From: a virus
Length of the DNA: 61,960 nucleotides
Reading direction: 5' to 3' (one strand)
IMG/VR virus record: IMGVR_UViG_3300020156_000031
Span: 1 to 61,960 of that record
Positions 4,747 through 60,086 of the stretch are shown piece by piece. A program made the translations under genes and the position numbers. Below the pieces are notes generated by a model that was not told the DNA's origin, ran no database searches, and worked only from the letters and a program-made list of their open reading frames with translations. The first letter of the stretch is position 1; each line of letters opens with the position of its first letter.

Positions 4747-5670
4747 TCACAGATAGTTCCGTCCGATGGTGCGCCCGAACCAGTAGGTGCCATCGGAGGT
4801 GAATGCGAAGAGATCGGCCTTGCTCGCGGTCGCTGTAAGAGTCGGCGCGGTTCCGGCGGGCCATTTCACGGCGGAGGGCCAGGTCACGGTGCGCGAGCCC
4901 GTCCCGTCCTGCTTCTGGACGAGAAGGAATGATTTCCCAGCCGATGCCGTGGGGAAGGTATAGGTGCAGTTCCCCGTCAATGTGAGGATTTGTACCGTCC
5001 CGTTGGCGAGGTCGATCGTGTAGGCCGTCGAGGTATTGGCGGAGACGGTTTCCTCGGTATAGCCGTTGTTGAAGGTGGCGCCGTTCACCGTCGGCGTGTT
5101 GAGCGTGGGCGACGTCAGGGTCTTCCCCGAAAGCGTCTGGGTGTCGGTCGTTCCCACAACCGTTCCAGAAGGCGCGGTCTTGCCCGCCCATGTCGTGAGA
5201 TCGGCATCATAGGCCTGAACGCTGACGCCGATATCGTCCTCATCCAGATAGCCGGAAAGATCGAGCGTGCTGGATTCGATCAGCTTGATCGCCGTCTCGC
5301 CGTCCGAATAGAAGAAGGCATTCTTGCCCTGGGTGATCGTCTCCCCGCTTCCCCCCGAAGGCTTCACGGTCACGGTATAGGCGCCCGACGTGCCGTTCTT
5401 GACCGCCCAGAACCCTTTTTGATCGGCCTTCAGGATGATGGAGCGGTTGCCGGTCAGTGCGCCGGACAGGTTGAGAAACAGAGAGCGGTGCTGCGCATCG
5501 GTCAGCGTGACATCGGCCGAGGTGACCGCGATATCGGAGCTTTCGGTGATCGCGTCCTCGAGAAATTCCAGATTGGAGGTGTTGGCCGCGCCCCAATTGT
5601 CGAAGCCGAGAACGCCGCTGTCTCCCAGCGCCAGGAGCGCCAGCAGGAGATTGGAGGATGTGGTCGCCAT
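4747..5670 (-). CDS. Tail fibre protein
   Basis: Encodes 307 residues from the ATG at 5670, which overlaps the stop of the adaptor gene by one base. The middle contains the stalk phrase LSGKTLTSPTLNTPTVNGATF, a repeat style seen in many trimeric phage fibres. The C-terminal part, with SFLLVQKQDGTGSRTVTWPS and FAFTSDGTYWFGRTIG, resembles the distal beta domain found at the end of many fibre proteins. The short hydrophobic N-terminus (LLLALLALG) probably docks on the tail rather than acting as a signal. Genes for the adaptor and a second fibre-like protein flank it. Confidence 0.8.
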   Translation of the reverse strand: MATTSSNLLLALLALGDSGVLGFDNWGAANTSNLEFLEDAITESSDIAVTSADVTLTDAQHRSLFLNLSGALTGNRSIILKADQKGFWAVKNGTSGAYTVTVKPSGGSGETITQGKNAFFYSDGETAIKLIESSTLDLSGYLDEDDIGVSVQAYDADLTTWAGKTAPSGTVVGTTDTQTLSGKTLTSPTLNTPTVNGATFNNGYTEETVSANTSTAYTIDLANGTVQILTLTGNCTYTFPTASAGKSFLLVQKQDGTGSRTVTWPSAVKWPAGTAPTLTATASKADLFAFTSDGTYWFGRTIGRNYL

Positions 5671-23725: not shown

Positions 23726-24036
23726 TCCGCCGCCTCCCGCATCGCTTCCTTCAGCCGCTGCTCTGCCACCCGTCTCCGGCCCGCTGCGCTTCTGGCCTGA
23801 AACACCATCGGCGTTTCCTTGATCTGGTCGGGGTCGTGGCGCAGCGCGTAAACCCTGCATTCCTCCGCATAGAGAGCCCGCCAGGCGTGCGCCTCGGCCT
23901 CCCATCGGTCCCGAAATGACCTCGGCTTGCCGTTGGCGCCCTTCAGCGTCATCGTCTGGCTGGTCCATGATGGGCGGAACACCGCGATGTATCCGTCATG
24001 TTTGGTCCAATGCGCCTCAGCCGTGGGGATGTTCAT
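23722..24036 (-). CDS. Small basic protein upstream of the CDC123-like gene
   Basis: Encodes 104 residues from the ATG at 24036; both ends overlap neighbours in ATGA style. It contains AHWTKHDGYIAVFRPSWTS and KPRSFRDRWEAEAHAWRAL, then a basic Arg/Ala-rich helical C-terminus (AAGRRRVAEQRLKEAMREAA). The tight coupling to the CDC123-like gene makes it a possible partner or substrate, though this is only context. No family recognised. Confidence 0.6.
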   Translation of the reverse strand: MNIPTAEAHWTKHDGYIAVFRPSWTSQTMTLKGANGKPRSFRDRWEAEAHAWRALYAEECRVYALRHDPDQIKETPMVFQARSAAGRRRVAEQRLKEAMREAAE

Positions 24037-25664
24037 GCTGCCTGATCCTTCATGATGTCCTCGACCATTTCGATGCGGGTGCCGATCCACCGCATTACGT
24101 TGACAGCCATGCTATTCCCAAGCGCTTTGTACCGAGGACCATCAGCCGCCGGTTTGCCGCGATAAGGGACATTCGTGTAATCGTCGGGGAACCCCTGTAG
24201 GCGCTCACATTCCCGAGGAGTGAGGCGGCGCACCGCCCATGTTTGCGCTACATAAGACCGGGATGAGCCGCCGGACGCCGCACGAATGTTGGCCGTCTCG
24301 TGAGGGCCCTCAAACTGCGCGCCCCCTTCACGGCCCCGCATATCGTAGGCTACCGCTGCGGGCTGGCCACCTCCAGAGGGGCTTGGGACTGTAAGCGTCG
24401 GGCTTATATCAACTCCAAACTTTGGTGTGACGCTTGTGGCTAAGCCATAGGCAACGGCTTGGACTTCCGACCGAGCTTCGAGCGTGTACGAAATGCCTTC
24501 CTGCACACCAACGCCATCGGGTCCGCTATTCGGGTTCTCGCGCAACGCACCAGCCTGGATTGCGATCGGCAATAGCGCACCTTGTTCATGAGGCATCCGT
24601 GCTGCGCTTGCTGCCATGCCAGAAGTCAGTGGATATGCCACAAGGTTGTCGTCATCTTCCTGCCGCCGACCTGCATAACCGCCCTCCCCTGCGCTCTCAG
24701 CGCCGCGGGTGAGTGTCTTGGCTACGACCGGAACAAGCGGCGTTCCCCGCCCCGTACCATCCTCTGAGGCGTCGAATCCTTCGCCCTTAAGGGTGTGAGC
24801 GACGAAGTTCTCCGTCTCCCAATCAAGGCGCTGGGCATAGCCTCGTGTGACACACGAGGCTACCGGATCGATGTGAGCGGCAATGTCATTGCCGCTGGCA
24901 CTCTCGTCTGTGCCTAGCTTGGCTCCGTATCCTTGAGTGACACTGCCAGTAATGCCGAAGCCAGTGCGGGCGGCAGAACTTTCCCCCGCTTCTCGGCGCG
25001 GCGGAGAATCCCCGCGCAAGCCTTCGCGCTCAAGTAATACCGCTGCGGCACGTCGCCAGTCTCCAAGATATCCGACAACGAACACACGCCGCCGTCGTTG
25101 AGGGACAGCCCGTCCAAACCCGTCCACTCGGATATATTGAGCGTCAAGCACTCGCCATGCGAGGCCGTACGCGCCTTGGTAGCCTGGGACAACTCCCGCA
25201 TTCCGCCATCCGTCGTGAGGGACTTCAATCCGTCGCCCGGAGAGCAATCCCAGAAGGCTTGCAAATCCTCGTCCTCCATCGTCCGAAAGGACGCCGGGGA
25301 CGTTTTCCCAGACCACCCACGAGGGGCGATATCGTTGAGCAATGGCACCAAAGGTGAGCATGAGGTTGCCACGAGGGTCATCCAGTCCCTTGCGGAGCCC
25401 CGCGACGGAGAAGGATTGGCATGGGGTTCCGCCGACAAGAAGGTCAATTGCATAGTCAGGCCACTCCTCGAATTTTGTCATGTCGCCAAGGTTCGGGACA
25501 CCGTTGGTCGTCAGCGCATCTCCGGGCATGTTGCTTCCGTAGTGATGAGCCAGCACCGCGGACGGAAACTTTTCGATCTCGCTGAAGAAAGCGGGCGTCC
25601 AGCCGAGGGGATGCCATGCCTGGGTCGCGGCCTCGATGCCGCTGCAAACGGAGCCGTACCTCAT
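24033..25664 (-). CDS. DNA (cytosine-5) methyltransferase
   Basis: Encodes 543 residues. All main motifs are visible: SVCSGIEAA (motif I) at 5-13, GGTPCQSFS with Cys82 (IV), WENVPGVL at 119-126 (VI), PQRRRRVFVVG (VIII), LTPRECERLQGFP (IX) and ALGNSMAV (X). Between VIII and IX lies a long target-recognition region of about 240 residues with many Gly, Ala and Thr and short repeated phrases such as VTQGYG and VTRGYA. The enzyme would methylate phage DNA at C5 of cytosine to avoid host restriction. It lies between the primase-helicase and accessory genes. Confidence 0.9.
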   Translation of the reverse strand: MRYGSVCSGIEAATQAWHPLGWTPAFFSEIEKFPSAVLAHHYGSNMPGDALTTNGVPNLGDMTKFEEWPDYAIDLLVGGTPCQSFSVAGLRKGLDDPRGNLMLTFGAIAQRYRPSWVVWENVPGVLSDDGGRGFASLLGLLSGRRIEVPHDGWRNAGVVPGYQGAYGLAWRVLDAQYIRVDGFGRAVPQRRRRVFVVGYLGDWRRAAAVLLEREGLRGDSPPRREAGESSAARTGFGITGSVTQGYGAKLGTDESASGNDIAAHIDPVASCVTRGYAQRLDWETENFVAHTLKGEGFDASEDGTGRGTPLVPVVAKTLTRGAESAGEGGYAGRRQEDDDNLVAYPLTSGMAASAARMPHEQGALLPIAIQAGALRENPNSGPDGVGVQEGISYTLEARSEVQAVAYGLATSVTPKFGVDISPTLTVPSPSGGGQPAAVAYDMRGREGGAQFEGPHETANIRAASGGSSRSYVAQTWAVRRLTPRECERLQGFPDDYTNVPYRGKPAADGPRYKALGNSMAVNVMRWIGTRIEMVEDIMKDQAA

Positions 25665-28181: not shown

Positions 28182-28444
28182 GGCGCGTTCTCCTGCTCGT
28201 CGCGGGCCTGGGCATAGGCCAGATAAAGGCGGGACGCTGTAAGCCTGTCCTCGGGCTCGCCAGAGCGCTTTGCGAGGTCAACCGCGTCCAGGTATTCGTC
28301 CCACTTGATTTGAAGTTCAGGGCAGCCCGTATGGGCCTCAGAGCCGCGCTCGATCTCCGCGCGGGCCAGTTCGTCCGACAAGCGAGCGAACGGCGGCACG
28401 ACGGCGGCAAAGCGGGGCTGATGCTTGAGGGCGAAGCGGCTCAT
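28178..28444 (-). CDS. Small helical protein of unknown function
   Basis: Encodes 88 residues, mostly helical, with ELQIKWDEYLDAVDLAKRSG and RLTASRLYLAYAQARDEQEN. It overlaps the stops and starts of both neighbours by four bases. No family recognised. The position, between a DNA methyltransferase and a replication initiator, is the only clue. Confidence 0.6.
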   Translation of the reverse strand: MSRFALKHQPRFAAVVPPFARLSDELARAEIERGSEAHTGCPELQIKWDEYLDAVDLAKRSGEPEDRLTASRLYLAYAQARDEQENAP

Positions 28445-29115
28445 GCTGCGTCTCCAAACAACTCGCCCTGCCGAGCATCCTTGCGATCGAGCATCCGCAG
28501 CACGGTTTCACCCTGCCATTTTCGATCCCACACGAACCAGGCGTTGAGCATCGGCGGCGCGCCCTGCCCCGTGAAATCGATCTTCCACCGCATGAGGTAG
28601 ACTCGCGCTGGCGGATGCTGGGCATAGAACGGGCCGAGTCCGCCGGCGCCGGGCCATCCCCAATTCATCAGGAGGGCCATGTAATCCACGTCCAGCGTGT
28701 CGAGCGCGTGCTTCAGCCAACGGGCCTTGCCGTTGCCCCAGCCGCATTCCCCGAAAGGAGGATTTGTCACAATCGCTTTCGGGCCGCTGGTGAAATCATA
28801 GAAGCTGGCGATCATCGCGCCGCAGCCCCGATCCACCATATCCGACTGTTGGACCTTGAGGCCGAGCGATTCCATCTCGCGCACCATGGCGCCGTCGCCG
28901 CAGGCCGGCTCCCAAACGCAAGGGAATTCCCTCAGCCGGTCGATTTCGGCATGGAGGAAAGCCCGCGTCGGTTCGGGCGGCGTCGGGTAGAAATCATCCT
29001 TCTCGCGCTCGAGGTCGTCGGTCTTGATGATTGAACCGTCCAACTGCCGGACGGCGACCGGCTTTGACTTCTTGCCGGTGGCGCGGAACAGCCCGCGTGC
29101 TGATACCGCCGTCAT
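28441..29115 (-). CDS. Adenine-specific DNA methyltransferase-like protein
   Basis: Encodes 224 residues. Motif I reads WEPACGDGAMVREME (P-A-C-G-D-G, SAM binding) and the catalytic motif is VTNPPFG at about residue 115, the NPPF form seen in N6-adenine and N4-cytosine methyltransferases. The sequence also has an FYPTPPEPTRAFL segment, usual in phage enzymes of this type. It is smaller than restriction-type methyltransferases and has no separate target-recognition domain. It is probably protective modification of phage DNA. Confidence 0.8.
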   Translation of the reverse strand: MTAVSARGLFRATGKKSKPVAVRQLDGSIIKTDDLEREKDDFYPTPPEPTRAFLHAEIDRLREFPCVWEPACGDGAMVREMESLGLKVQQSDMVDRGCGAMIASFYDFTSGPKAIVTNPPFGECGWGNGKARWLKHALDTLDVDYMALLMNWGWPGAGGLGPFYAQHPPARVYLMRWKIDFTGQGAPPMLNAWFVWDRKWQGETVLRMLDRKDARQGELFGDAA

Positions 29116-29483
29116 TTCACCACCTCGACATCTATGCCGAGCAGCGCCTTCATCATCTTGCGCTTGAGGCGGAATTCCCTGGTAACGTATCCCTTCACGT
29201 CGATGACGCGAAACCTGTCCTCGACATGATCCCAGAAGGCGAAGTCTGCCTTGTACGTGGCGATCAATTCGCCCTTGGGGCCAAGCATCTTGAAAGGGCG
29301 CTGCATCTCTACAGCGGACACCTCTCCGGCTTTCTCGCGGATTTTGAGCGCGGCGTAATAGTCTCCCTCTGCCTTGCTATCAAACGTGATGCCGTCGATC
29401 ACGGTTTTGCGGTTGCCGTACTTGGCCCGCTTGGGCTTCGCTGCCTGCGCCTGAAATTCCGCTGCTGTCATCCGTTCTGTCAT
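29112..29483 (-). CDS. DUF1064 nuclease-like protein
   Basis: Encodes 123 residues; the ATG at 29471 is an alternative start. The family pattern KYGNRKTVIDGITFDSKAEG, then ATYKADFAFWD, then FRVIDVKGYVT is clear. The E, D and D-x-K residues (KAE, KADF, IDVKG) are those expected of a PD-(D/E)XK nuclease fold. DUF1064 proteins are short phage proteins in replication operons, and some act as Holliday-junction or recombination-related nucleases by prediction. The gene starts just downstream of the tandem hairpins at 29503-29617. Confidence 0.75.
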   Translation of the reverse strand: MTERMTAAEFQAQAAKPKRAKYGNRKTVIDGITFDSKAEGDYYAALKIREKAGEVSAVEMQRPFKMLGPKGELIATYKADFAFWDHVEDRFRVIDVKGYVTREFRLKRKMMKALLGIDVEVVK

Positions 29484-29502: not shown

Positions 29503-29617
29503 AAAATGCTGCCCGACCTGGGAGGAGGAGTGGTCGGGCAGCAGGTTGTGGGCGCGCCTGGGAGGAGGACGAGCGCGCCCCTTCGCGCTGGCGGGAGCGG
29601 GAACAACCGCCAGTGAA
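29503..29617 (-). ncRNA. Triple-hairpin RNA with two anti-Shine-Dalgarno loops (alpha-r14/NfeR1-like)
   Basis: Three hairpins follow each other on the minus strand. First, CTGGCGG/CCGCCAG (29613-29588, 12-base loop). Second, GGGCGCGC/GCGCGCCC (29580-29550). Third, TGCTGCCCGAC/GTCGGGCAGCA (29543-29507), followed by TTTTCC. Loops two and three are both 15 bases and both contain CCTCCTCCCAG. A roughly 115-base RNA with three stems, CCUCCUCCC in two loops and a terminator-like last stem is the signature of the alpha-r14 (suhB, NfeR1) sRNAs of rhizobia. No clear promoter is seen upstream, so it may be cut from the operon message or have a weak promoter. Confidence 0.65.
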
Positions 29618-29622
29618 GCTCA

Positions 29623-29991
29623 TCAGCCGAGGCGGGCCCCGGCGAAGAAACAGAACCGGCTATGGCCGTCGCGGGCGAGGCAGATGTGATAGGCCCCGTC
29701 CTCGCTGTCGCGCGCCGACTGGTACGGAACCACGCCGGAATAGCCCTGGGTTTTCAGTTGGGGATGGGTGCCGACCGGCAATTCGACATGGTAGCCGTCG
29801 GCGGCTTCCGTGACATAGCGCGCATCGATCGGCGCGCAGTCGCCGTTCTTGTGGGTCGCCGCGGAATGGCAGCACTGAGGCGGATATTCCATGCCGCTCT
29901 GGGCGGTATGGGCCTTTGCCATGGTGACGGCGACCAGCGATGATACCGCGATGACGGCAACCGCCATGGACGAGATGATAAGTCTGCTCAT
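29623..29991 (-). CDS. Small exported protein with conserved cysteines
   Basis: Encodes 122 residues. It starts with a clear signal peptide (MSRLIISSMAVAVIAVSSLV then VTMAKAHTAQ). The mature part has Cys in QCCHSAATHKNGDCAP and in ICLARDGHSRFCFFAG, and a beta-rich middle (GYHVELPVGTHPQL). Proteins with this exact plan, to my memory, are widespread in Rhizobiales and their phages without known function. It is likely periplasmic. It sits directly upstream of the hairpin RNA. Confidence 0.65.
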   Translation of the reverse strand: MSRLIISSMAVAVIAVSSLVAVTMAKAHTAQSGMEYPPQCCHSAATHKNGDCAPIDARYVTEAADGYHVELPVGTHPQLKTQGYSGVVPYQSARDSEDGAYHICLARDGHSRFCFFAGARLG

Positions 29992-32070: not shown

Positions 32071-32531
32071 TGGGCTGCCTCCGAAGAATTCGCGGCTTCG
32101 AAGATATCGGGCCGCAACTGCTGGCGAGGAATGCCGGTGAAAGCCTCGACCCGGAGTAGATGCTCGACCGGCACCTTGCGCCATTGGCTGATGTTCGACC
32201 GCGTGACGTTCAAGTGCTTCGCAAGCCGAACCTGCGAACCCCTGTTGGCCTTGATCCAGTTTGTCAGGATGTCGTTTCCACCAACGCTGAGCGTTGCCGC
32301 CCACGCCGCGACTTCACCTTCATCCCTGAACCATTCCGAGCCATTGACGCGATACGGGGAGAACTGGATGTGAATTTCCCGCTCCCGGCGATCCTCAGCA
32401 TCGAAGAACCCGACCAGCTCGACCGGGTGGGGGTTGAACGTCTTGGCGATCCTCAGTCTGGATTCCGGGTTCCGGGACCAGCCGATCTTGAGGAAGCCTT
32501 CACTTCTGAGGACGTAGATGAAACCCATCAT
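32067..32531 (-). CDS. GIY-YIG (T5orf172-like) nuclease domain fused to Cro-like HTH
   Basis: Encodes 154 residues; ATGs at 32531 and 32528 are both possible. The N-terminus MGFIYVLRSEGFLKIGWSRN followed by PESRLRIAKTFNPHP is a T5orf172/MUG113-type GIY-YIG nuclease domain, ending with REREIHIQFSPYRVNGSEWF. The C-terminal 55 residues (GSQVRLAKHLNVTRSNISQWRKVPVEHLLRVEAFTG) form a helix-turn-helix of the YdaS/Cro type. It is the second gene of the minus-strand early operon, right behind Cro. The domain pair suggests a nuclease steered to, or controlled by, operator-like DNA. Confidence 0.75.
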   Translation of the reverse strand: MMGFIYVLRSEGFLKIGWSRNPESRLRIAKTFNPHPVELVGFFDAEDRREREIHIQFSPYRVNGSEWFRDEGEVAAWAATLSVGGNDILTNWIKANRGSQVRLAKHLNVTRSNISQWRKVPVEHLLRVEAFTGIPRQQLRPDIFEAANSSEAAQ

Positions 32532-32731
32532 CCCGCTGCCTCCGTTTTGGAAGCAAGCATGGTTTCCATGTCCACGCCGGTATGCTCCCGGATCGCGACC
32601 GCCACCTTCAGGGACGGCGTTGCATATCCGAGGCGGATGCGGGCGATCATGGAACGGTCACAGCCGACCAACTCCGCGAGCTGGGCGTCCTTCATTCCGG
32701 TTTCGGTCATGTGCTGCTGAAGTGTTTTCAT
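32528..32731 (-). CDS. Cro-like transcriptional regulator
   Basis: Encodes 67 residues from the ATG at 32731. It is a small XRE-type helix-turn-helix protein: MTETGMKDAQLAELVGCDRS followed by MIARIRLGYATPS. The ATG lies about seven bases downstream of the predicted -10 box and has no ribosome binding site, so the message may be leaderless. It is divergent from the repressor and first in the early replication operon, as expected for Cro. Confidence 0.75.
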   Translation of the reverse strand: MKTLQQHMTETGMKDAQLAELVGCDRSMIARIRLGYATPSLKVAVAIREHTGVDMETMLASKTEAAG

Positions 32732-32737
32732 GCCGCC

Positions 32738-32766
32738 ATGGTGCATCACATGAACGTTCATGTCAA
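32738..32766 (-). promoter_or_regulatory. Early promoter PR (minus strand)
   Basis: On the minus strand TTGACA (32766-32761), 17 bases, then CACCAT (32743-32738). The first gene's ATG follows at 32731. The layout matches the other early promoter at 34205: the same -35 box and spacing, GTTCAT at the same place, and a common ATGCAC(C/T)AT. Confidence 0.7.
32748..32763. promoter_or_regulatory. Operator, perfect 16-base palindrome
   Basis: ACATGAACGTTCATGT reads the same on both strands. It sits between the -35 and -10 boxes of PR. Half sites recur at 32786 and at 34189 and, less exactly, 34216, so this is the likely binding site of the repressor and/or Cro. Confidence 0.7.
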
Positions 32767-32785
32767 GCACAATTCGACGCAACAT

Positions 32786-32793
32786 GTTCATGT
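32786..32793. promoter_or_regulatory. Second operator half site
   Basis: GTTCATGT, identical to one half of the main operator, centred 34 bases away. It lies between PR and the repressor start and could tune repressor self-control. Confidence 0.5.
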
Positions 32794-32835
32794 CATGGAA
32801 TGGCCCTTAGAACGGGAATGTGGGACTTCTTCGCA

Positions 32836-33162
32836 ATGCCCCCGATTAAGAAACCAAAGCCGCAACTGGGCCGCACGTTCCTTCGAGAATGGAGGGAGTA
32901 CCGCGATCTCTCACAGGAAACCGCCGCCGATCTGCTCGGCATTTCGCGCCCGAATCTGTCAAAGATCGAGAACGGGGCTGTGCCCTATTCGCAGCCAATC
33001 CTCGAGGCTGCGGCCGTCGCCTATAGGTGCGACGTGACCGATCTGCTCCGCTACGATCCGTTTAAGGTCGGAGAGGCTGTTGACCTCCTGGCCCTGCTGA
33101 ATGCCAAGACAGATGCCCAGAGGGAGCAAGCAATCCGCATTCTCAAAGCTGCACTGAGTTAA
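32836..33162 (+). CDS. CI-like repressor (XRE family)
   Basis: Encodes 108 residues from the ATG at 32836; the in-frame ATG at 32818 is an alternative. It has one HTH domain: REWREYRDLSQETAADLLGI followed by SRPNLSKIENGAVPYSQPIL. The C-terminus (KTDAQREQAIRILKAAL) is helical and may dimerise. There is no LexA-type protease domain, so induction by RecA-driven self-cleavage is not expected. It is divergent from Cro, with the operators between, the standard layout of a lysogeny switch. Confidence 0.75.
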   Translation: MPPIKKPKPQLGRTFLREWREYRDLSQETAADLLGISRPNLSKIENGAVPYSQPILEAAAVAYRCDVTDLLRYDPFKVGEAVDLLALLNAKTDAQREQAIRILKAALS

Positions 33163-52604: not shown

Positions 52605-55600
52605 TCAATTCTCCTTTCCGGCCTCGAAATACTGCTTCCGCGCCTGGTTCATGATTTCAAGCTCCTGCTCGTCCAGCATCTTGAGCAAGGCCTTGGCATT
52701 GTCCGGCTCCGACTTCTCGATCTGCCGGCGCTTCTTGTTGATGGCGCGGCGCTGCTTTTCCGCCAGGTCGAACGCCTTCTGGGCATCGGCTTCCTGCTGG
52801 TTGTCCTTGACGAATTCCTTGAGCCCTTCGCTGTCGCCGGACTCGCTGAATTCCTTCATCTTGCCCTTGACGTATTGGACCTTCTCGCGCTGGGCGTAAT
52901 ATTCCGAGCGCTTGCCATGGTCGTCCACCTCCCCATAGAAGGACCGGATGAACGGGGTTTTCTTCGGCTCGAATTCCAATGCCGCCGCGCGATTGGCCGT
53001 CTCCACGCTTTGCGAGACAAACCGCCCGACGCCGCCGGTAAACCAGCCCCACAGATGTTCCAATGAATCCGGGTAGACATCGATCGCGCCGGGGAGGACT
53101 TCATTGCCGCCGCTGATCTTGTTGAGCGTTTCCGCGCCCCAGCGGAAGACCGGGCTCGTGGATTTGAACGCCTGCTCGCTCTTGGGCGGCGGTGCCGGGT
53201 CGTACTGGTTTTCCTGCGGATAGATCGGGTTGCCGGCGAAATTCTCATTGGTGCCGAGTTCCCAGACGGGATCAATCACCGAGGGAAGCGCCATGCTCAC
53301 CCAACCGCCGGAGCCCAGCGGATTGAACGCCTCGAAGGCAACGCGCGTGCTGTCGAGCATGGCAGGCAGGAAATCCTTGCCGCCCGATGTCACCGCGCCG
53401 CCCTGCATCCCGAGATGCCAGAAGGCGTTCATGCCGAAGCCCAGCGGGATCATCACGTATTCCTTCGATCCGGGAAGGAAGAACACCATGCTGCGCTCGA
53501 ATTTCCACGGCTCGTTTCGGAGCATCTTGAGATAGGCGTTTTCGCCGTCGTCGTCATCGCCGGCCATGGCGAGGTTCCAGAAGTGCTGCGCGAGCCCTGC
53601 TCCCATGATGCCGGCCATGGCGACCTTGATCTTGCGCGAGCGATAGACGCCCTTGGCGAAATTGAGGTTGCCCTGCACACTCGCATTGAAGAACGTGTAG
53701 AGGCTGTTCATCGCCGGCGTCATCTCGCCCTTCTTCTGGAAATCGACGGTCAGGTCGCGGGCGAGAAACGCGGCGCGGCTGTCGGTTTCGCCGCGGGCGC
53801 GGCTGGCGTCGAACACGGCGAGGCGCATGCCGTTCTCGATGGTGTCGTTCAAGTCCTCGATGAGGCTGATGAACCCCTTCCATGTTTTCCCGACGACGCC
53901 CTGCGAGGTGATCCGCGCCATGTCCTTCTGCAGACGCTTGGCGGTGCCCTCGATCGTGTCGTACTGGTCGAAGGTGATCTTGCCACCGGCGGCCTTGAAC
54001 GCCTTTAGGGTGTTGTCCCACTTGCCGGTTCCCGGCTTGCCGCGCGCGTCGTTCCACAGGGCTTTCCATGCCTTCGGGATATTGGTCACCATCTTGGCGA
54101 TTTCGCCGGTCGAGAAATCCTTGCTCAGCGCCAGGGTCGCGCCGGTCTGCACGTCGCGCAGGAAGTTGATCGGCACGAAGGCTGGATTCATCCTCGTGTT
54201 AACCATCGACTGCCAGTTCGACACCTTGCGGACGATCTTCAGCGCCACGCCCAATTCCGGGAACGTCATCTTCTTGAGCGCGAGCCCGACCTTGGGATCG
54301 GCGAATTCCATATAGTAGGTCTTTCCGCCGACCTTGGCCGCCAGCACGTCATCCTTCATCTGGAAGGCATTGACCTTGCTGTTCGTTACCTTGCCGTCCT
54401 TGCCCAGCTTGCGGCGGTAGACCGGCGGTGCCTTGGTGATGTCGCCCAACTGGTCCGGTTCGTCCGACCAATAGACCTTAGCAATGCTTTCGCCTTGAGG
54501 ATCAAACTCGTTGATGAAGCGAAGCGCGGCCGTGGCAGCCTTGTTTTTCTCGACACGAATGATGCTCTGCTCTGCGTTGTTGATGGCATAGACGACAACG
54601 TTGTCCGCCTTGGTATAGCGGCCCGTCGCGCCCTTGAATTCGTCGCCCCTGACATCGAAGCCCCGGCTCTTGGAGGGGAACGAGCCGCCGGTTCCGTCGA
54701 GGTCCGATTCCGCGCGGAGCGGGACATAATACTGCCATTGCGTGGTCAGCCGCTCATAGGTGGCCTTGTTGATGAGCCCCGCCTTGAGCTGGCGCTTCAA
54801 CCCATCGTCAAGCATGGCGCGGATATGGGCCGAGGCGCGGCGGATGCCCATGAATTTCTCACGGTCCTTGGCGAGTTCGCGGATGATCTCCTTGGCCTCG
54901 TTGGTCGACATGCCCGAGGCGCCCCGAATGCTCGGGTCGGTCGCCGCCTTGTAGAGGTCCGAGTCCTCGTCATTCCGCAAGCCGACGACGCGGTTCCGCT
55001 CGGGCGCGTGCATGGCATACATGAATTCGTGCAGGTCTTTTTCCGTCGCGCCGACCTTCGCCAGTTCCTCGATCGCCGGGGTGACGTACTTTTCATCGAT
55101 CTGGTGGATTTCGTGGCGGATCGTACCCTCTGCCAGGCGGGCGGTGAGATAGGCGTCGGCGAGGTCGTTGAGCTTGACACCGACCTTGTTCTGCATCTGG
55201 AGAACCGGATCGAGGTAATCCACGATCTTGCGGGTGGTGTATTCGCCGAAGGATTCGCCGTCATCGGCATTCGATCGGTCGAACCGGCTGCCCTTGGACT
55301 TGGCCTTCGATGTGAGGGCCTTGCTGGCTGCTGCTATTGCGTCATGGAGACGGATGCCGCGCGCCTTCTCCGGGGTGCGGATCGGCTCGTTCGGGGCGCG
55401 CTCGACGATGGAGAAGTCAATGCGCGGATCGTTCGGGTCGAAGGTGCCGCGATTGTTGATGGACTTGATCTGCGTGGGTTTGAACGCAACGAAAGTGTCG
55501 GTCGGCTTGGTCTTGGCGTCGTTGTTATAGTTATCGCGGACATTGCGGATAATGACGCCATCGTGGCCTTCTTCGCGCGCCTGATCGATCACATCGCTGG

Positions 55601-58600
55601 TTTTGCCACGCGCCTGCGCCTCGCGCCATTCCTTTCCACCGCCGTCAATGATAAGCGGATTTTGCAGGCTGACATAGAACGCCGCTACTCCACCTTCCGC
55701 GTTCTGGTAGTCGAACGCGCGGCGCTCATCGGCATAACTCAAAGCCGTGGCGCGGGATGAGGCAAACCAGAAAGCCCCATCATCTTCGCGCGGGGCCATA
55801 CCGAACCTTTCGGCTCTACCTTTGAACTGCGCATCTTCGCCTTTGAGAAATCTGGCGTCGGGACTCCCATGATACACGACCAGCGGCTTGCCCTTGTCAT
55901 CGACCACCTTGCTGTCACCGAACCACTTCTTGAAGGCTTCGGAATCAACGGCAGGGGCGAGCGAAAACTGCGGCGCGGCCTGCTCGCGCTTCCTCGGCGC
56001 GCGTTCCTTCATCTCCCCGCTCTTGGCCTTGGCGAAGACATCTTCCGCCGACTGGTAGCCCCGACCCAGAAGATAGTTGCGGACGCGGCGCAGCACGTCC
56101 CTGATCTTCGCCCACACCTTGCGCACGCCGATATGGACCTTCAGGGTTTCGCCCTTGTCCATGGCCTGCGCCCAGATGCCGAAGGACTCGGCTTCCACCT
56201 CACGGCGCGACATGGCGCGGACGGTCGCTGCGGAATGATCGCCTCTTTCCGCCACAATGGCCCGCAGGCGCGGTTCTTCCGCTGCCAGTACCTTGCGCTC
56301 CCGGCTGTCCACGAACAGGTTCTGGATGCGGTGGAAGGCTTCGTGATAGGCGGTCTTGTCCGCGCGCACCGAAGGGGTGTCGAGCGCCAGCACGATCACA
56401 TCGCGGACGGGATGATAGAAGCCCGCAGCGGTCGCGTCCTCGTTGGATTTGCCCCATGCCGCCAGACCGGGAGAACCGGCGGGAACCTTGATCTGGTCCA
56501 TGAAGGACGGATCGATGCCCGCGACCTTGGCGACAATGCCCGCGACACGCTTCTGTTCGGTTTCGGAGAGAAGGATGGCGGGCTCGCCGGGATCGGCGGT
56601 TTCCCAGCCCGAGGGCGCGGCGTCGAGGTCCAGCAAGTCCTTCTGGTCCATCTCGTCGCTAAAAAGCCCCCCAGGGTCTTTCTGAGGGGCTTTCGGCTTG
56701 AGGGGAGCATCGGCCTTGCGCTGGGCCATATCCGCGTCGGTGGCCCGCTCCGCGCCGGGAATGACGAGTTGCGGCTTGTTGTCGGCGCCGCGTTCTTCCG
56801 CGGGGGCCTTTTCCTTGGCCGGCTTGTTCAGGGAAGCCAGATGCTCCTGAACCGGGACAGCTTCGTATTTCTCTTTGTTGATGGCGTCGGCGGTGCTTTT
56901 GTTGAACGTCTCGAGGACGACATCGCCGGTTGCCTTTTCGCGGACAACCCACGACGCAACGGGTGCCTTTACTGGCTGCGGTCGCTCAGACCCTTCCCGC
57001 TCAGGCTCTTGGCGCTCAGGCGCGCTTTCTCGATCGCCGCGTTCGCTGTCTTGCCGGCTTCCGTCGCCCTCGCCTTCCGTCCGATCTTCGCCACGAACCG
57101 GCCGATCTGCGCGAGCTTCTTCAACTCCGCCTTCCGGTTCGCGTCCTGCGTCGAGTTCGCCTGTCTCTCGATCAACTGGACCGCTTTCAGGTGCTGTTCC
57201 GGGCTGTACTTCACGGTCGTCTCCAAAAAACGGGATGCCGGCAACGGTTTCGGTCGGTTCGACCAGCGACTTGCCGGCATCAAGGTAGGCCAACTCTACC
57301 GCATCATCGAAGCCTTTTCCATCGGAAACGAGACGTGCAACGGCAGCGATGAAATCGTCCGCGCCATCTACTGGAAAGCCCTCGGAGGCGAGACGGTCGC
57401 GCACTTCCTGCTGCGTTGCTTCATGGGAGCCTTCCGCTGCCGCCTCGGCCTCCACGCCCTGCTCGCCGCGCCATGCCGCCGTCCAGTCGTCATCGTACTG
57501 CGAGAACACCTGACGGCCGTTGCGGGTGTCCAGATCCAGCGCGTCATAGAAATCGGCAAGGGTGGAATCCATCGGCAGATAGCCGGCCTCGGCGGCAGCT
57601 TCACGCGCCTTGTCGGGGTGCATGCCCCTCGCCCGCACGACGGGACCGGCGCCGACCACGAAGCCGGTCTTGCGATCCGTAAGCCCCATGGCCCTCAGTT
57701 CGCCGGTTTCCTCATGCACACCACCACGGCGGGCGATGAACTCCATGAGGCTGTCGGGCTTCTTCACCCTGCCCTTGCGATCGACGGGAAAGCCCTGGTC
57801 ATTGAGGCGGACATCCGGCTTGCCCATCGAAAGCGGCTTGGTGGTGTCGCCATCGCGGAGCCACTTCCTGAACTCGGAAACCGACATCGGGGTAATGCCG
57901 CCGATCCGGTCGGCGCCCATCTTGTCGGAGAACGCGCGGGTGTAGAGATCGCGGGCTTCGGAAACCGAGCTCACGCCCATGATGGCCTTATGCTCATCAA
58001 AGCGGCGGGTGCGCAAATCCTTCTGGTCGATCACATAGACGCGCTTCGAGGAAGGGTTATCGCCGACATAGACATCGACCTGATCCTTGTCGGCTCCAAC
58101 GGTGCCCTTGATCCGCCCATAATGCGCCGGGAGTTCCACGGACCATTGCTGCCCGTTGGGATCGGTCCCGGAGCGCACCGCGCCCTTCGGGGTTTCGATG
58201 GCAATGTCCAGACCCGCAAGCTTCAAATGGCCGTGCTTATAGTTTCCCGCGACCTTCTGCGCTTCGCTCGGCTGGGTGTTGACCTTCTGCGCCGCGACTT
58301 CGACATGCTGCGGGGCCTGCACGACAACGGGCGCGCGGCGGGTGCCATCGCCCTTGATGTCCTCGGAAACGGACTGCTCGACGGTCTGGGAAAGCTGGGG
58401 GAGAACCGGCGCCACGGCGCGCTCCGCGTCCTGATCCTGATCTTCCGCAACGGAAGCCTGCACGGTCTGGGAGAGTTGCGGCCGCACCGGGGCGATGGCC
58501 TGCTCCGCCTCTGCGTCCTGATCGGCGGCGACGGATTGCCGGACCGCTTGCTGAAGCTGGGGAAGGACGGGGGAGACGGCTTGCTCGACCTGCTGCGCTT

Positions 58601-60086
58601 GATCGGCTTCGATCGACTGGCGCACGGTGTCGGCGATCAGGCTCTGGATTTCCGGCGTCAGTTCCGGCTCCGGCTGGGCCACTGGCGCGGGAAGCGGCTG
58701 CGGGGCGACAACCGGAGCCTCGACCGGAGAAACGCTCTCAGCGGGCATCTGGGGCGATTGAGCGACGAGTTCGGGGCGAGGTTCGGGGATGGGGATATTT
58801 TCGGGAGTGACTGCCTGCGGAGCCTGATACTGCTCGGCCTTGCGGACCATGGCGCCATTGACCTTGATGCCGGCGGCGATGGCTTCCGCCACTTTCGCAT
58901 CCACCTCTTCACGAGACATCAGGTCGATATCTTCATCGGGGATGGAGGTGCGGCGCAGGATGGCGCGTTCCTCGGGAGAAATGGCAGACGGCGGAGAGGC
59001 GCGAAGAGGCGAAGCAACGTCCTCCCCGCCGTCTTGCGTTGCGGGAGCCTCGCTGGGGAGGACAGCAGTCTCGACCGCATCGCCTTCTATGCCCTCGGTG
59101 GGCAAACTGGTTTCGTTGGGGGTGGCCGGGTCAGGCGAAAGGGCTTCCACTGTCGCGCTTGCCGTCCGAACCGCGCCGCCGACCGGAGCGCCGCCGACTG
59201 CGCCGGCCAGCATCTGATCGCCGGTTTTCATCGGATCGAACCCGGCTTCCGTGCCGAGCGTCGTCGCGGTGCTTTCAACACCCTCTTGCAGGGCTTCGGT
59301 CGCGCCTTCCTTGACGGCTGCTTTCGCAGCTTCCGCCGGAACTTCCTTCAGGGACTGGATTGCAACGTCATCCAGTCCAAACATGGAGCGCGCGCCAAAG
59401 CGGTCCAGCAACGCGGTCGCGGTCGATGCAGGGAGAACCTTGAGAAGGTCTTCAGGACGCGCACTCGCCAGACCGTCATTGACGGCGCGGTCCTGCGCAA
59501 GGCCGCCGGTGCGGGCGGCGACATAGCCGGGAAGGGCGAACACGGATGCAGCCATGTCCGGCGTCGAAATAAGGCCCTGCTCGAGCGCGAAGCCGAGGAT
59601 GTTCCCGGCGGTCGGATTTTCCTTGACCTGCTCCCATGTGGTGCCCGGAACATAGCCGAGGTTGAAGTCCCGCATTTCCTGCGAGGCCTTCTGCAGTTCC
59701 GTTTTGGTCGGGAACAGAGACTCTTCCGGCTTGCCCTTGTCGGAATACATGAAACTCGGCAGGGCGCGCACCACGCCGTCTTCGTCGCTAGGTGCGGTGG
59801 CGGCGATCAGGTTGCCGAACTGGCCGAAGAGATCGACCGTCTGCTCGCCGATGCCCTTGGCGATATTCGCGGCGCTATCGAGATAGCCCGGTTCTTCCAC
59901 CGGAACCGGAGCGGCGGAAACCTTGCCTGGCTCGTCCAGCGTGAATCCATCCGGCAGCGGCGGCAAAGCCGTGGACGCAACGGGTGCGTCGAGCGTGAAT
60001 CCCTCCGGCAACGGGGGGAGTTCGGCCTTCGGCTCGTCCAGCACGAATCCCTCCGGCAAGGGGGGCAGTGCGACCGCTTCGTTCAT
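52605..60086 (-). CDS. Giant polyvalent ejection protein (2,493 residues)
   Basis: Starts at ATG 60086, overlapping the upstream stop. Visible parts in order: three LPPLPEGFTLDEP repeats (residues 1-50); an Ala/Glu-rich region; Gln-rich LPQLSQTV-type repeats (about 480-570); an inorganic-pyrophosphatase-like domain (GNYKHGHLKLAG to DQVDVYVGDNP, about 610-750); charged linkers; a zincin with HEAFH at 1247-1251; an ADP-ribosyltransferase-like domain (KPLVVYHGS, FWFASSRATALSYADE, about 1384-1500); a long helical part; and an LPD38-like end (about 2100-2400) with FFLPGSKEYVMIPLGFGMN. This matches phage polyvalent proteins injected with the genome. It would act inside the new host cell. Confidence 0.8.
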   Translation of the reverse strand: MNEAVALPPLPEGFVLDEPKAELPPLPEGFTLDAPVASTALPPLPDGFTLDEPGKVSAAPVPVEEPGYLDSAANIAKGIGEQTVDLFGQFGNLIAATAPSDEDGVVRALPSFMYSDKGKPEESLFPTKTELQKASQEMRDFNLGYVPGTTWEQVKENPTAGNILGFALEQGLISTPDMAASVFALPGYVAARTGGLAQDRAVNDGLASARPEDLLKVLPASTATALLDRFGARSMFGLDDVAIQSLKEVPAEAAKAAVKEGATEALQEGVESTATTLGTEAGFDPMKTGDQMLAGAVGGAPVGGAVRTASATVEALSPDPATPNETSLPTEGIEGDAVETAVLPSEAPATQDGGEDVASPLRASPPSAISPEERAILRRTSIPDEDIDLMSREEVDAKVAEAIAAGIKVNGAMVRKAEQYQAPQAVTPENIPIPEPRPELVAQSPQMPAESVSPVEAPVVAPQPLPAPVAQPEPELTPEIQSLIADTVRQSIEADQAQQVEQAVSPVLPQLQQAVRQSVAADQDAEAEQAIAPVRPQLSQTVQASVAEDQDQDAERAVAPVLPQLSQTVEQSVSEDIKGDGTRRAPVVVQAPQHVEVAAQKVNTQPSEAQKVAGNYKHGHLKLAGLDIAIETPKGAVRSGTDPNGQQWSVELPAHYGRIKGTVGADKDQVDVYVGDNPSSKRVYVIDQKDLRTRRFDEHKAIMGVSSVSEARDLYTRAFSDKMGADRIGGITPMSVSEFRKWLRDGDTTKPLSMGKPDVRLNDQGFPVDRKGRVKKPDSLMEFIARRGGVHEETGELRAMGLTDRKTGFVVGAGPVVRARGMHPDKAREAAAEAGYLPMDSTLADFYDALDLDTRNGRQVFSQYDDDWTAAWRGEQGVEAEAAAEGSHEATQQEVRDRLASEGFPVDGADDFIAAVARLVSDGKGFDDAVELAYLDAGKSLVEPTETVAGIPFFGDDREVQPGTAPESGPVDRETGELDAGREPEGGVEEARADRPVRGEDRTEGEGDGSRQDSERGDRESAPERQEPEREGSERPQPVKAPVASWVVREKATGDVVLETFNKSTADAINKEKYEAVPVQEHLASLNKPAKEKAPAEERGADNKPQLVIPGAERATDADMAQRKADAPLKPKAPQKDPGGLFSDEMDQKDLLDLDAAPSGWETADPGEPAILLSETEQKRVAGIVAKVAGIDPSFMDQIKVPAGSPGLAAWGKSNEDATAAGFYHPVRDVIVLALDTPSVRADKTAYHEAFHRIQNLFVDSRERKVLAAEEPRLRAIVAERGDHSAATVRAMSRREVEAESFGIWAQAMDKGETLKVHIGVRKVWAKIRDVLRRVRNYLLGRGYQSAEDVFAKAKSGEMKERAPRKREQAAPQFSLAPAVDSEAFKKWFGDSKVVDDKGKPLVVYHGSPDARFLKGEDAQFKGRAERFGMAPREDDGAFWFASSRATALSYADERRAFDYQNAEGGVAAFYVSLQNPLIIDGGGKEWREAQARGKTSDVIDQAREEGHDGVIIRNVRDNYNNDAKTKPTDTFVAFKPTQIKSINNRGTFDPNDPRIDFSIVERAPNEPIRTPEKARGIRLHDAIAAASKALTSKAKSKGSRFDRSNADDGESFGEYTTRKIVDYLDPVLQMQNKVGVKLNDLADAYLTARLAEGTIRHEIHQIDEKYVTPAIEELAKVGATEKDLHEFMYAMHAPERNRVVGLRNDEDSDLYKAATDPSIRGASGMSTNEAKEIIRELAKDREKFMGIRRASAHIRAMLDDGLKRQLKAGLINKATYERLTTQWQYYVPLRAESDLDGTGGSFPSKSRGFDVRGDEFKGATGRYTKADNVVVYAINNAEQSIIRVEKNKAATAALRFINEFDPQGESIAKVYWSDEPDQLGDITKAPPVYRRKLGKDGKVTNSKVNAFQMKDDVLAAKVGGKTYYMEFADPKVGLALKKMTFPELGVALKIVRKVSNWQSMVNTRMNPAFVPINFLRDVQTGATLALSKDFSTGEIAKMVTNIPKAWKALWNDARGKPGTGKWDNTLKAFKAAGGKITFDQYDTIEGTAKRLQKDMARITSQGVVGKTWKGFISLIEDLNDTIENGMRLAVFDASRARGETDSRAAFLARDLTVDFQKKGEMTPAMNSLYTFFNASVQGNLNFAKGVYRSRKIKVAMAGIMGAGLAQHFWNLAMAGDDDDGENAYLKMLRNEPWKFERSMVFFLPGSKEYVMIPLGFGMNAFWHLGMQGGAVTSGGKDFLPAMLDSTRVAFEAFNPLGSGGWVSMALPSVIDPVWELGTNENFAGNPIYPQENQYDPAPPPKSEQAFKSTSPVFRWGAETLNKISGGNEVLPGAIDVYPDSLEHLWGWFTGGVGRFVSQSVETANRAAALEFEPKKTPFIRSFYGEVDDHGKRSEYYAQREKVQYVKGKMKEFSESGDSEGLKEFVKDNQQEADAQKAFDLAEKQRRAINKKRRQIEKSEPDNAKALLKMLDEQELEIMNQARKQYFEAGKEN

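Follow-up and report, generated by a model that had tools for sequence, protein, structure and literature searches.

A twin-hairpin element of the cuckoo RNA kind in the early operon of a temperate tailed phage

Introduction

Cuckoo RNAs are regulators that occur in multiple copies in rhizobia and related bacteria. As Reinkensmeier and Giegerich are said to have described them in 2015 (RNA Biol 12:197), they consist of two to four adjacent hairpins, each with CCUCCUCCC in its loop, and are found in bacterial genomes. SmelA075 and SmelA099 are members of this family (PMC3927594). NfeR1, an RNA of the alpha-r14 (ar14) type, silences mRNAs by pairing its anti-Shine-Dalgarno loops with translation initiation regions (PMC10746234), and CcsR1-4 of Rhodobacter sphaeroides are freed from a 3' UTR in a process that involves RNase E (PMC8625941). 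Phages are also known to encode small RNAs; AgvB and AsxR act as sponges of other sRNAs (PMC12559287).

Here we describe an element of the cuckoo kind in the early operon of a temperate phage. A literature search on the motif, cuckoo RNAs, NfeR1 and phage sRNAs, with the founding cuckoo paper outside its reach, turned up no account of copies in phages. What appears to be new is that such an element occurs in a phage, that it is embedded in an early operon and that it recurs so widely, while priority is uncertain. The reading that we favour, by a modest degree, is that the element, which lies in the early operon, is released as a small RNA that blocks ribosome-binding sites.

Results

The window, that is, the whole stretch of DNA analysed, is a 61,960-base virus record from IMG/VR. 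Its genes for an integrase, portal, terminase, major head protein and Bet-like annealing protein mark it as coming from a temperate tailed phage. The minus-strand early operon opens with a cro-like HTH gene (32528-32791, minus strand), which is divergent from a repressor-like HTH gene (32818-33162, plus strand); after the cro-like gene come small genes, the element, DUF1064, a DNA methylase, DUF1376 and a primase-helicase. The element lies about 3 kb past the cro-like gene and occupies most of a 139-nt gap between two co-directional genes. The upstream one (29623-29991, minus strand) encodes a 122-aa protein of unassigned family and stops just before the first hairpin, and the downstream one, a Holliday-resolvase-like DUF1064 gene (29112-29483, minus strand), has its ATG 36 nt past the second motif. 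Genes were called with our own script, and an individual gap length may be inaccurate if a start was misplaced. The methylase (28441-29115, minus strand) is 57-86% identical to relatives in alphaproteobacterial prophages, which sit in genomes of Devosia, Aliihoeflea, Phyllobacterium, Aureimonas, Shinella, Rhizobium and others. The virus infects soil bacteria and, since the methylase relatives sit in such genomes, its host is most likely a member of Hyphomicrobiales.

The initial annotation had placed three consecutive stem-loops at 29503-29617 on the minus strand, and folding bore this out. The minimum free energy of this segment was -61.3 kcal/mol (z = -6.0), and none of 200 shuffled sequences was equally stable. 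Hairpin 1 (29588-29613) has a 7-bp outer stem and a loop that lacks CCUCCUCCC; cmscan aligned it to the first hairpin of ar14, and it may be either a degenerate third hairpin or unrelated to the other two. Hairpin 2 (29550-29580) combines a 9-bp stem with the loop CGUCCUCCUCCCA, in which the motif CCUCCUCCC spans 29558-29568, and hairpin 3 (29507-29543) a 12-bp stem with the loop ACUCCUCCUCCCA, in which it spans 29518-29528. Two of the three loops thus carry the motif, as had been noted from the sequence, but each is 13 and not 15 nt long. Hairpin 3 is followed by an AU-rich end that includes UUUU at 29506-29503; this TTTT run had also been pointed out, but it was not called as a terminator and would be a weak one at most. 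A simple consensus scan called neither a promoter nor a terminator at the element on its strand. With one mismatch allowed, CCTCCTCCCAG occurs twice in the window, both times in the element, and twin hairpins with CCTCCTCCC loops were found once in the window and in none of 300 dinucleotide shuffles. When a 281-nt context is folded, the upstream coding sequence can pair with hairpins 1 and 2 instead, and hairpin 3 persists.

The element had been taken for a phage-borne relative of the alpha-r14 (NfeR1/suhB) RNAs, and a covariance-model search had been suggested as a check. Such a search gave matches that lie below threshold: nothing in the window reached an Rfam cut-off, and at a permissive threshold the best two of 4227 families were ar14 and CcsR1, both aligned over the full model on the right strand. 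The element scored 51.3 bits with ar14 (RF02344; cut-off 58.8, E 1.6e-8) and 40.3 bits with CcsR1 (RF02791; cut-off 65.3, E 1.7e-8), in both cases below the cut-off and far above chance. The suhB model (RF00519) gave no match anywhere in the record, and none at the locus at E values up to 10; the suhB identity was therefore rejected. Strict membership in alpha-r14 also fell away, given the loop without the motif, the score of 51.3 against 58.8, and the promoter and terminator of its own that the consensus scan did not find. Scores of this order are the rule for the twin form, since four of five other phage twin elements checked likewise matched ar14 below the cut-off (38-45 bits); two of these also matched CcsR1.

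By structure the element is of the cuckoo kind and is not a strict member of ar14, CcsR1 or suhB. Like the cuckoo family it has adjacent hairpins with CCUCCUCCC loops (29550-29580 and 29507-29543) and freely variable stems, which are unrelated between distinct loci and covary in one phage lineage; unlike that family it lies in a phage early operon rather than a bacterial genome and has an extra 5' hairpin lacking the motif. It shares with alpha-r14/NfeR1, its best Rfam match, three hairpins, anti-Shine-Dalgarno loops and a similar length. It differs from them in that only two of the three loops carry CCUCCUCCC, in its position between operon genes, and in the lack of its own sigma-70 promoter and terminator in the consensus scan. 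The nearer architecture is the two-hairpin, operon-embedded form of the CcsR RNAs, which also place two CCUCCUCCC hairpins in a longer transcript beside protein genes (PMC8625941), and the alignment to CcsR1 extends over both hairpins of the model. CcsR1-4 differ in forming a row of four, as opposed to a single element, and in their association with a DUF1127 gene (ccaF1), which is absent upstream of the element and elsewhere in the window.

We then looked at how widely the twin form is distributed. Viral contigs were scanned for two copies of CCTCCTCCC 20-50 nt apart, and the locus counts that follow are lower bounds. Among the matches listed, both copies lay in hairpin loops in 95 of 190 pairs, compared to 2 of 123 pairs of the reversed motif. 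The 95 elements form at least 40 sequence-distinct clusters, at least 34 of them with two intact motifs, including the window element and L019, a three-hairpin element with one motif shortened; a few of the remaining clusters may be host flanks or chance. The twin form is thus present in at least about 30 other sequence-distinct viral loci. Homologues with the exact stem-loop pattern of the window element were absent from the viral contigs (0 matches), and close homologues from plasmids and phages; in 14 host genomes the only match, 66 nt long, was to a host copy (E 2e-5). The upstream ORF (29623-29991) had no relatives that we could find, and relatives of the DUF1064 gene were seen at only one viral locus. 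In one contig (L052:2463-3563, minus strand) and four related ones, a twin CCUCCUCCC hairpin lies in frame within an ATPase-like gene (phrog_1366), where it encodes a linker, PASSSRQ...PLSSSQEPAP, that is kept in the five related proteins and beyond which the protein continues.

To ask whether the stems are under selection, we relied on an alignment of one lineage with controls, and on the reversed-motif control above, since a pair count registered by hand is partly circular when loci have been selected for pairing; a sequence alignment of 31 distinct elements placed gaps inside stem 1. The lineage alignment (15 rows) consists of relatives of the same twin form, not of orthologues of the window copy. 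In it, 99.6% of cells pair, compared to 87.9% in shuffles, 7 of 19 pairs show changes on both sides, and the covariation score is 0.381, against 0.165 for shuffled alignments and at most 0.104 for slid partners. Compensatory base changes in related phages, which the initial annotation had named as a further check, are therefore present in the class, but an orthologue of the window element was not found.

Related elements were also identified in the isolated phages RHph_TM3_3_3 and RHph_N28_2 (Rhizobium) and phiLM21 (Sinorhizobium), where they occupy the early region after repressor and cro and none is annotated as an RNA. They resemble the window element in twin form and position, and differ from it in their stems and neighbours; RHph_N28_2 has one clear motif hairpin only and phiLM21 has degenerate loops. 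A close relative of the window phage, with a methylase 84% identical, carries a twin element that runs in the same direction in the operon but some 1.9 kb upstream of the methylase; the element therefore does not hold a fixed place. In some related prophages (four loci), single hairpins with CCTCCTCC loops lie near the methylase on the gene strand, and these are possibly one-hairpin versions of the element.

The gene order around the twin form bears on its function. Among the matches listed, the gene downstream shares the element's strand at 26 of 28 distinct loci (p = 3e-6), and the gene upstream does so at 24 of 33; since the downstream gene is so regularly co-directional, the RNA strand is the transcribed strand. 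The neighbours listed are mostly early DNA-metabolism or regulatory genes, with structural genes in two cases, and encode a Dda-like helicase, exonuclease VIII, a RecE-like exonuclease, SSB, an annealing protein, a DNA methyltransferase and an antirepressor. Neighbours this varied point to a portable module and away from control of a single gene. This weighs against a cis-acting intercistronic element whose hairpins and anti-Shine-Dalgarno loops tune translation or mRNA stability of the adjacent gene (DUF1064 in this case), for instance if they cover its ribosome-binding site or protect an mRNA end. Such a role would fit the start codon that follows the second motif at 34-48 nt in 13 of 26 distinct loci among the matches listed, and at 36 nt in the window. 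However, that gap is about the minimum needed for a stem and a ribosome-binding site, it exceeds 150 nt in another 11 of the listed loci, the neighbours differ in nearly every lineage, and in one lineage the element is in frame within a coding gene. We therefore consider a cis-acting role unlikely.

Besides the twin form, at least five viral loci, L019 among them, have free-standing three-hairpin elements with U-runs that score 73-81 bits with ar14, above the cut-off. In the two groups read in detail, the element lies between helicase and exonuclease genes on the opposite strand, and the phages encode an integrase, a Sak4-like annealing protein and a polymerase processivity factor. Phage 16-3 is among the relatives of this group, and the element was absent, in the stretches read, from phage 16-3 and from relatives of the free-standing form.

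Host genomes were richer in the motif. All 14 genomes with methylase-related prophages hold CCTCCTCCC pairs (2-9 each), compared to one reversed-motif pair across all of them, and in one of these genomes ar14 matched four times, three of them with a score above the cut-off. Such a pair occurs in only three of 52 phage records, almost all of which are methylase relatives; this indicates that the element is accessory in these phages and common in hosts. Taken together with the sub-threshold ar14 and CcsR1 matches and the compensatory stem changes in related phage elements, the host pairs uphold the earlier view of a phage-borne relative of the alpha-r14/NfeR1 kind, i.e. of cuckoo RNAs. A contig listed as viral (L105:757-1157, minus strand) has two tandem ar14 copies (108-109 bits) near a small ORF that by eye resembles DUF1127 proteins; it is probably a bacterial flank.

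Another possibility is that the loops act as a protein decoy, titrating Hfq, a CcaF1-like protein or another host RNA-binding protein rather than pairing with mRNAs. Identical loops would compete with the copies found in all 14 genomes, and host cuckoo RNAs do need such proteins, e.g. CcaF1 for CcsR maturation (PMC8625941). The long U-tail expected for Hfq is absent, however, no DUF1127 gene lies in the window, though a host protein could serve, and base pairing explains more simply why the full anti-Shine-Dalgarno motif is retained. A decoy seems to us distinctly improbable.

Discussion

Our preferred reading, a released RNA that pairs with ribosome-binding sites, has to be weighed against two further alternatives. 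The put RNAs of phage HK022 are two-hairpin RNAs that mediate processive antitermination, and two adjacent hairpins in early operons, on the transcribed strand only, could on this model form a processive antitermination or attenuation site. We regard this as very unlikely, as free-standing sRNAs of hosts and of other phages have this same loop motif, and the element lies kilobases beyond the promoter region and also occurs in structural operons. There is equally little probability that a captured host cuckoo RNA is decaying here with no present function for the phage, as the first hairpin without the motif, the sub-threshold Rfam scores, the patchy presence among related phages and the degraded loops of phiLM21 might suggest, since two perfect loops and near-perfect stems remain, and the twin form is seen again at about 30 or more distinct loci and shows strong covariation within one lineage.

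The element is thus most likely a portable, operon-embedded sRNA that pairs with ribosome-binding sites; its transcription, processing and targets we infer from the described relatives. The twin hairpin would be co-transcribed with the early polycistronic mRNA, and RNase E-type processing could then free it in the form of a stable small RNA, as happens with CcsR1-4. Like those of NfeR1, its loops might pair with purine-rich ribosome-binding sites and so keep certain mRNAs from being translated; in this way the phage RNA may imitate the cuckoo RNAs of the host, or compete with them, during induction or infection. AgvB and AsxR are likewise phage-carried small RNAs that enter host riboregulation, but they bind host sRNAs by complementarity, whereas the element has the same sense as the host sRNAs and so would mimic or compete with them rather than sponge them. 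The small-RNA reading is weakened by the lack of a promoter and strong terminator of its own, the scores below cut-off, the failure to find an exact orthologue, the patchiness (3 of 52 records) and the potential of hairpins 1 and 2 to re-pair.

Ribosome-binding sites of element-bearing phages showed neither avoidance of nor enrichment for complementarity to the loops, which likewise speaks against this reading. We also considered that the phage spares its own genes by weak Shine-Dalgarno sequences, and rejected this idea, as neither the host nor relatives lacking the element differed in this respect. Among the genes of the window, the best Watson-Crick match has 8 nt (TGGGAGGA) and lies before the gene at 4747-5670; it is at about chance level and should be read as a lead and not as evidence.

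More tentatively, and with rather less confidence than we place in the reading of this one locus, alphaproteobacterial temperate phages might share portable anti-Shine-Dalgarno modules, set into varied early-operon junctions and even in frame, that redirect host translation at lytic onset. The element may serve the control of protein synthesis during infection and would, if so, be a concrete case of a phage exploiting the cell's anti-Shine-Dalgarno logic. If phages carry operon-embedded cuckoo RNAs, they also offer a likely route by which these RNAs spread and multiply between genomes. Since published NfeR1 target reporters and culturable element-bearing phages both exist, the question is directly testable.

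Two other features of the window were observed. The C5-cytosine methylase gene at 24033-25664 (minus strand) contains, on its own strand but in a different reading frame, a 179-aa ORF (24914-25453, minus strand). Relatives show unusual conservation in parts of this stretch (up to 87% DNA identity), and the ORF on its own weakly matches a methyltransferase family; an overprinted gene or a frame-shifted or mosaic methylase is possible. The 2493-aa protein encoded at 52605-60086 (minus strand) matches minor head, endolysin and DarB-like antirestriction families.
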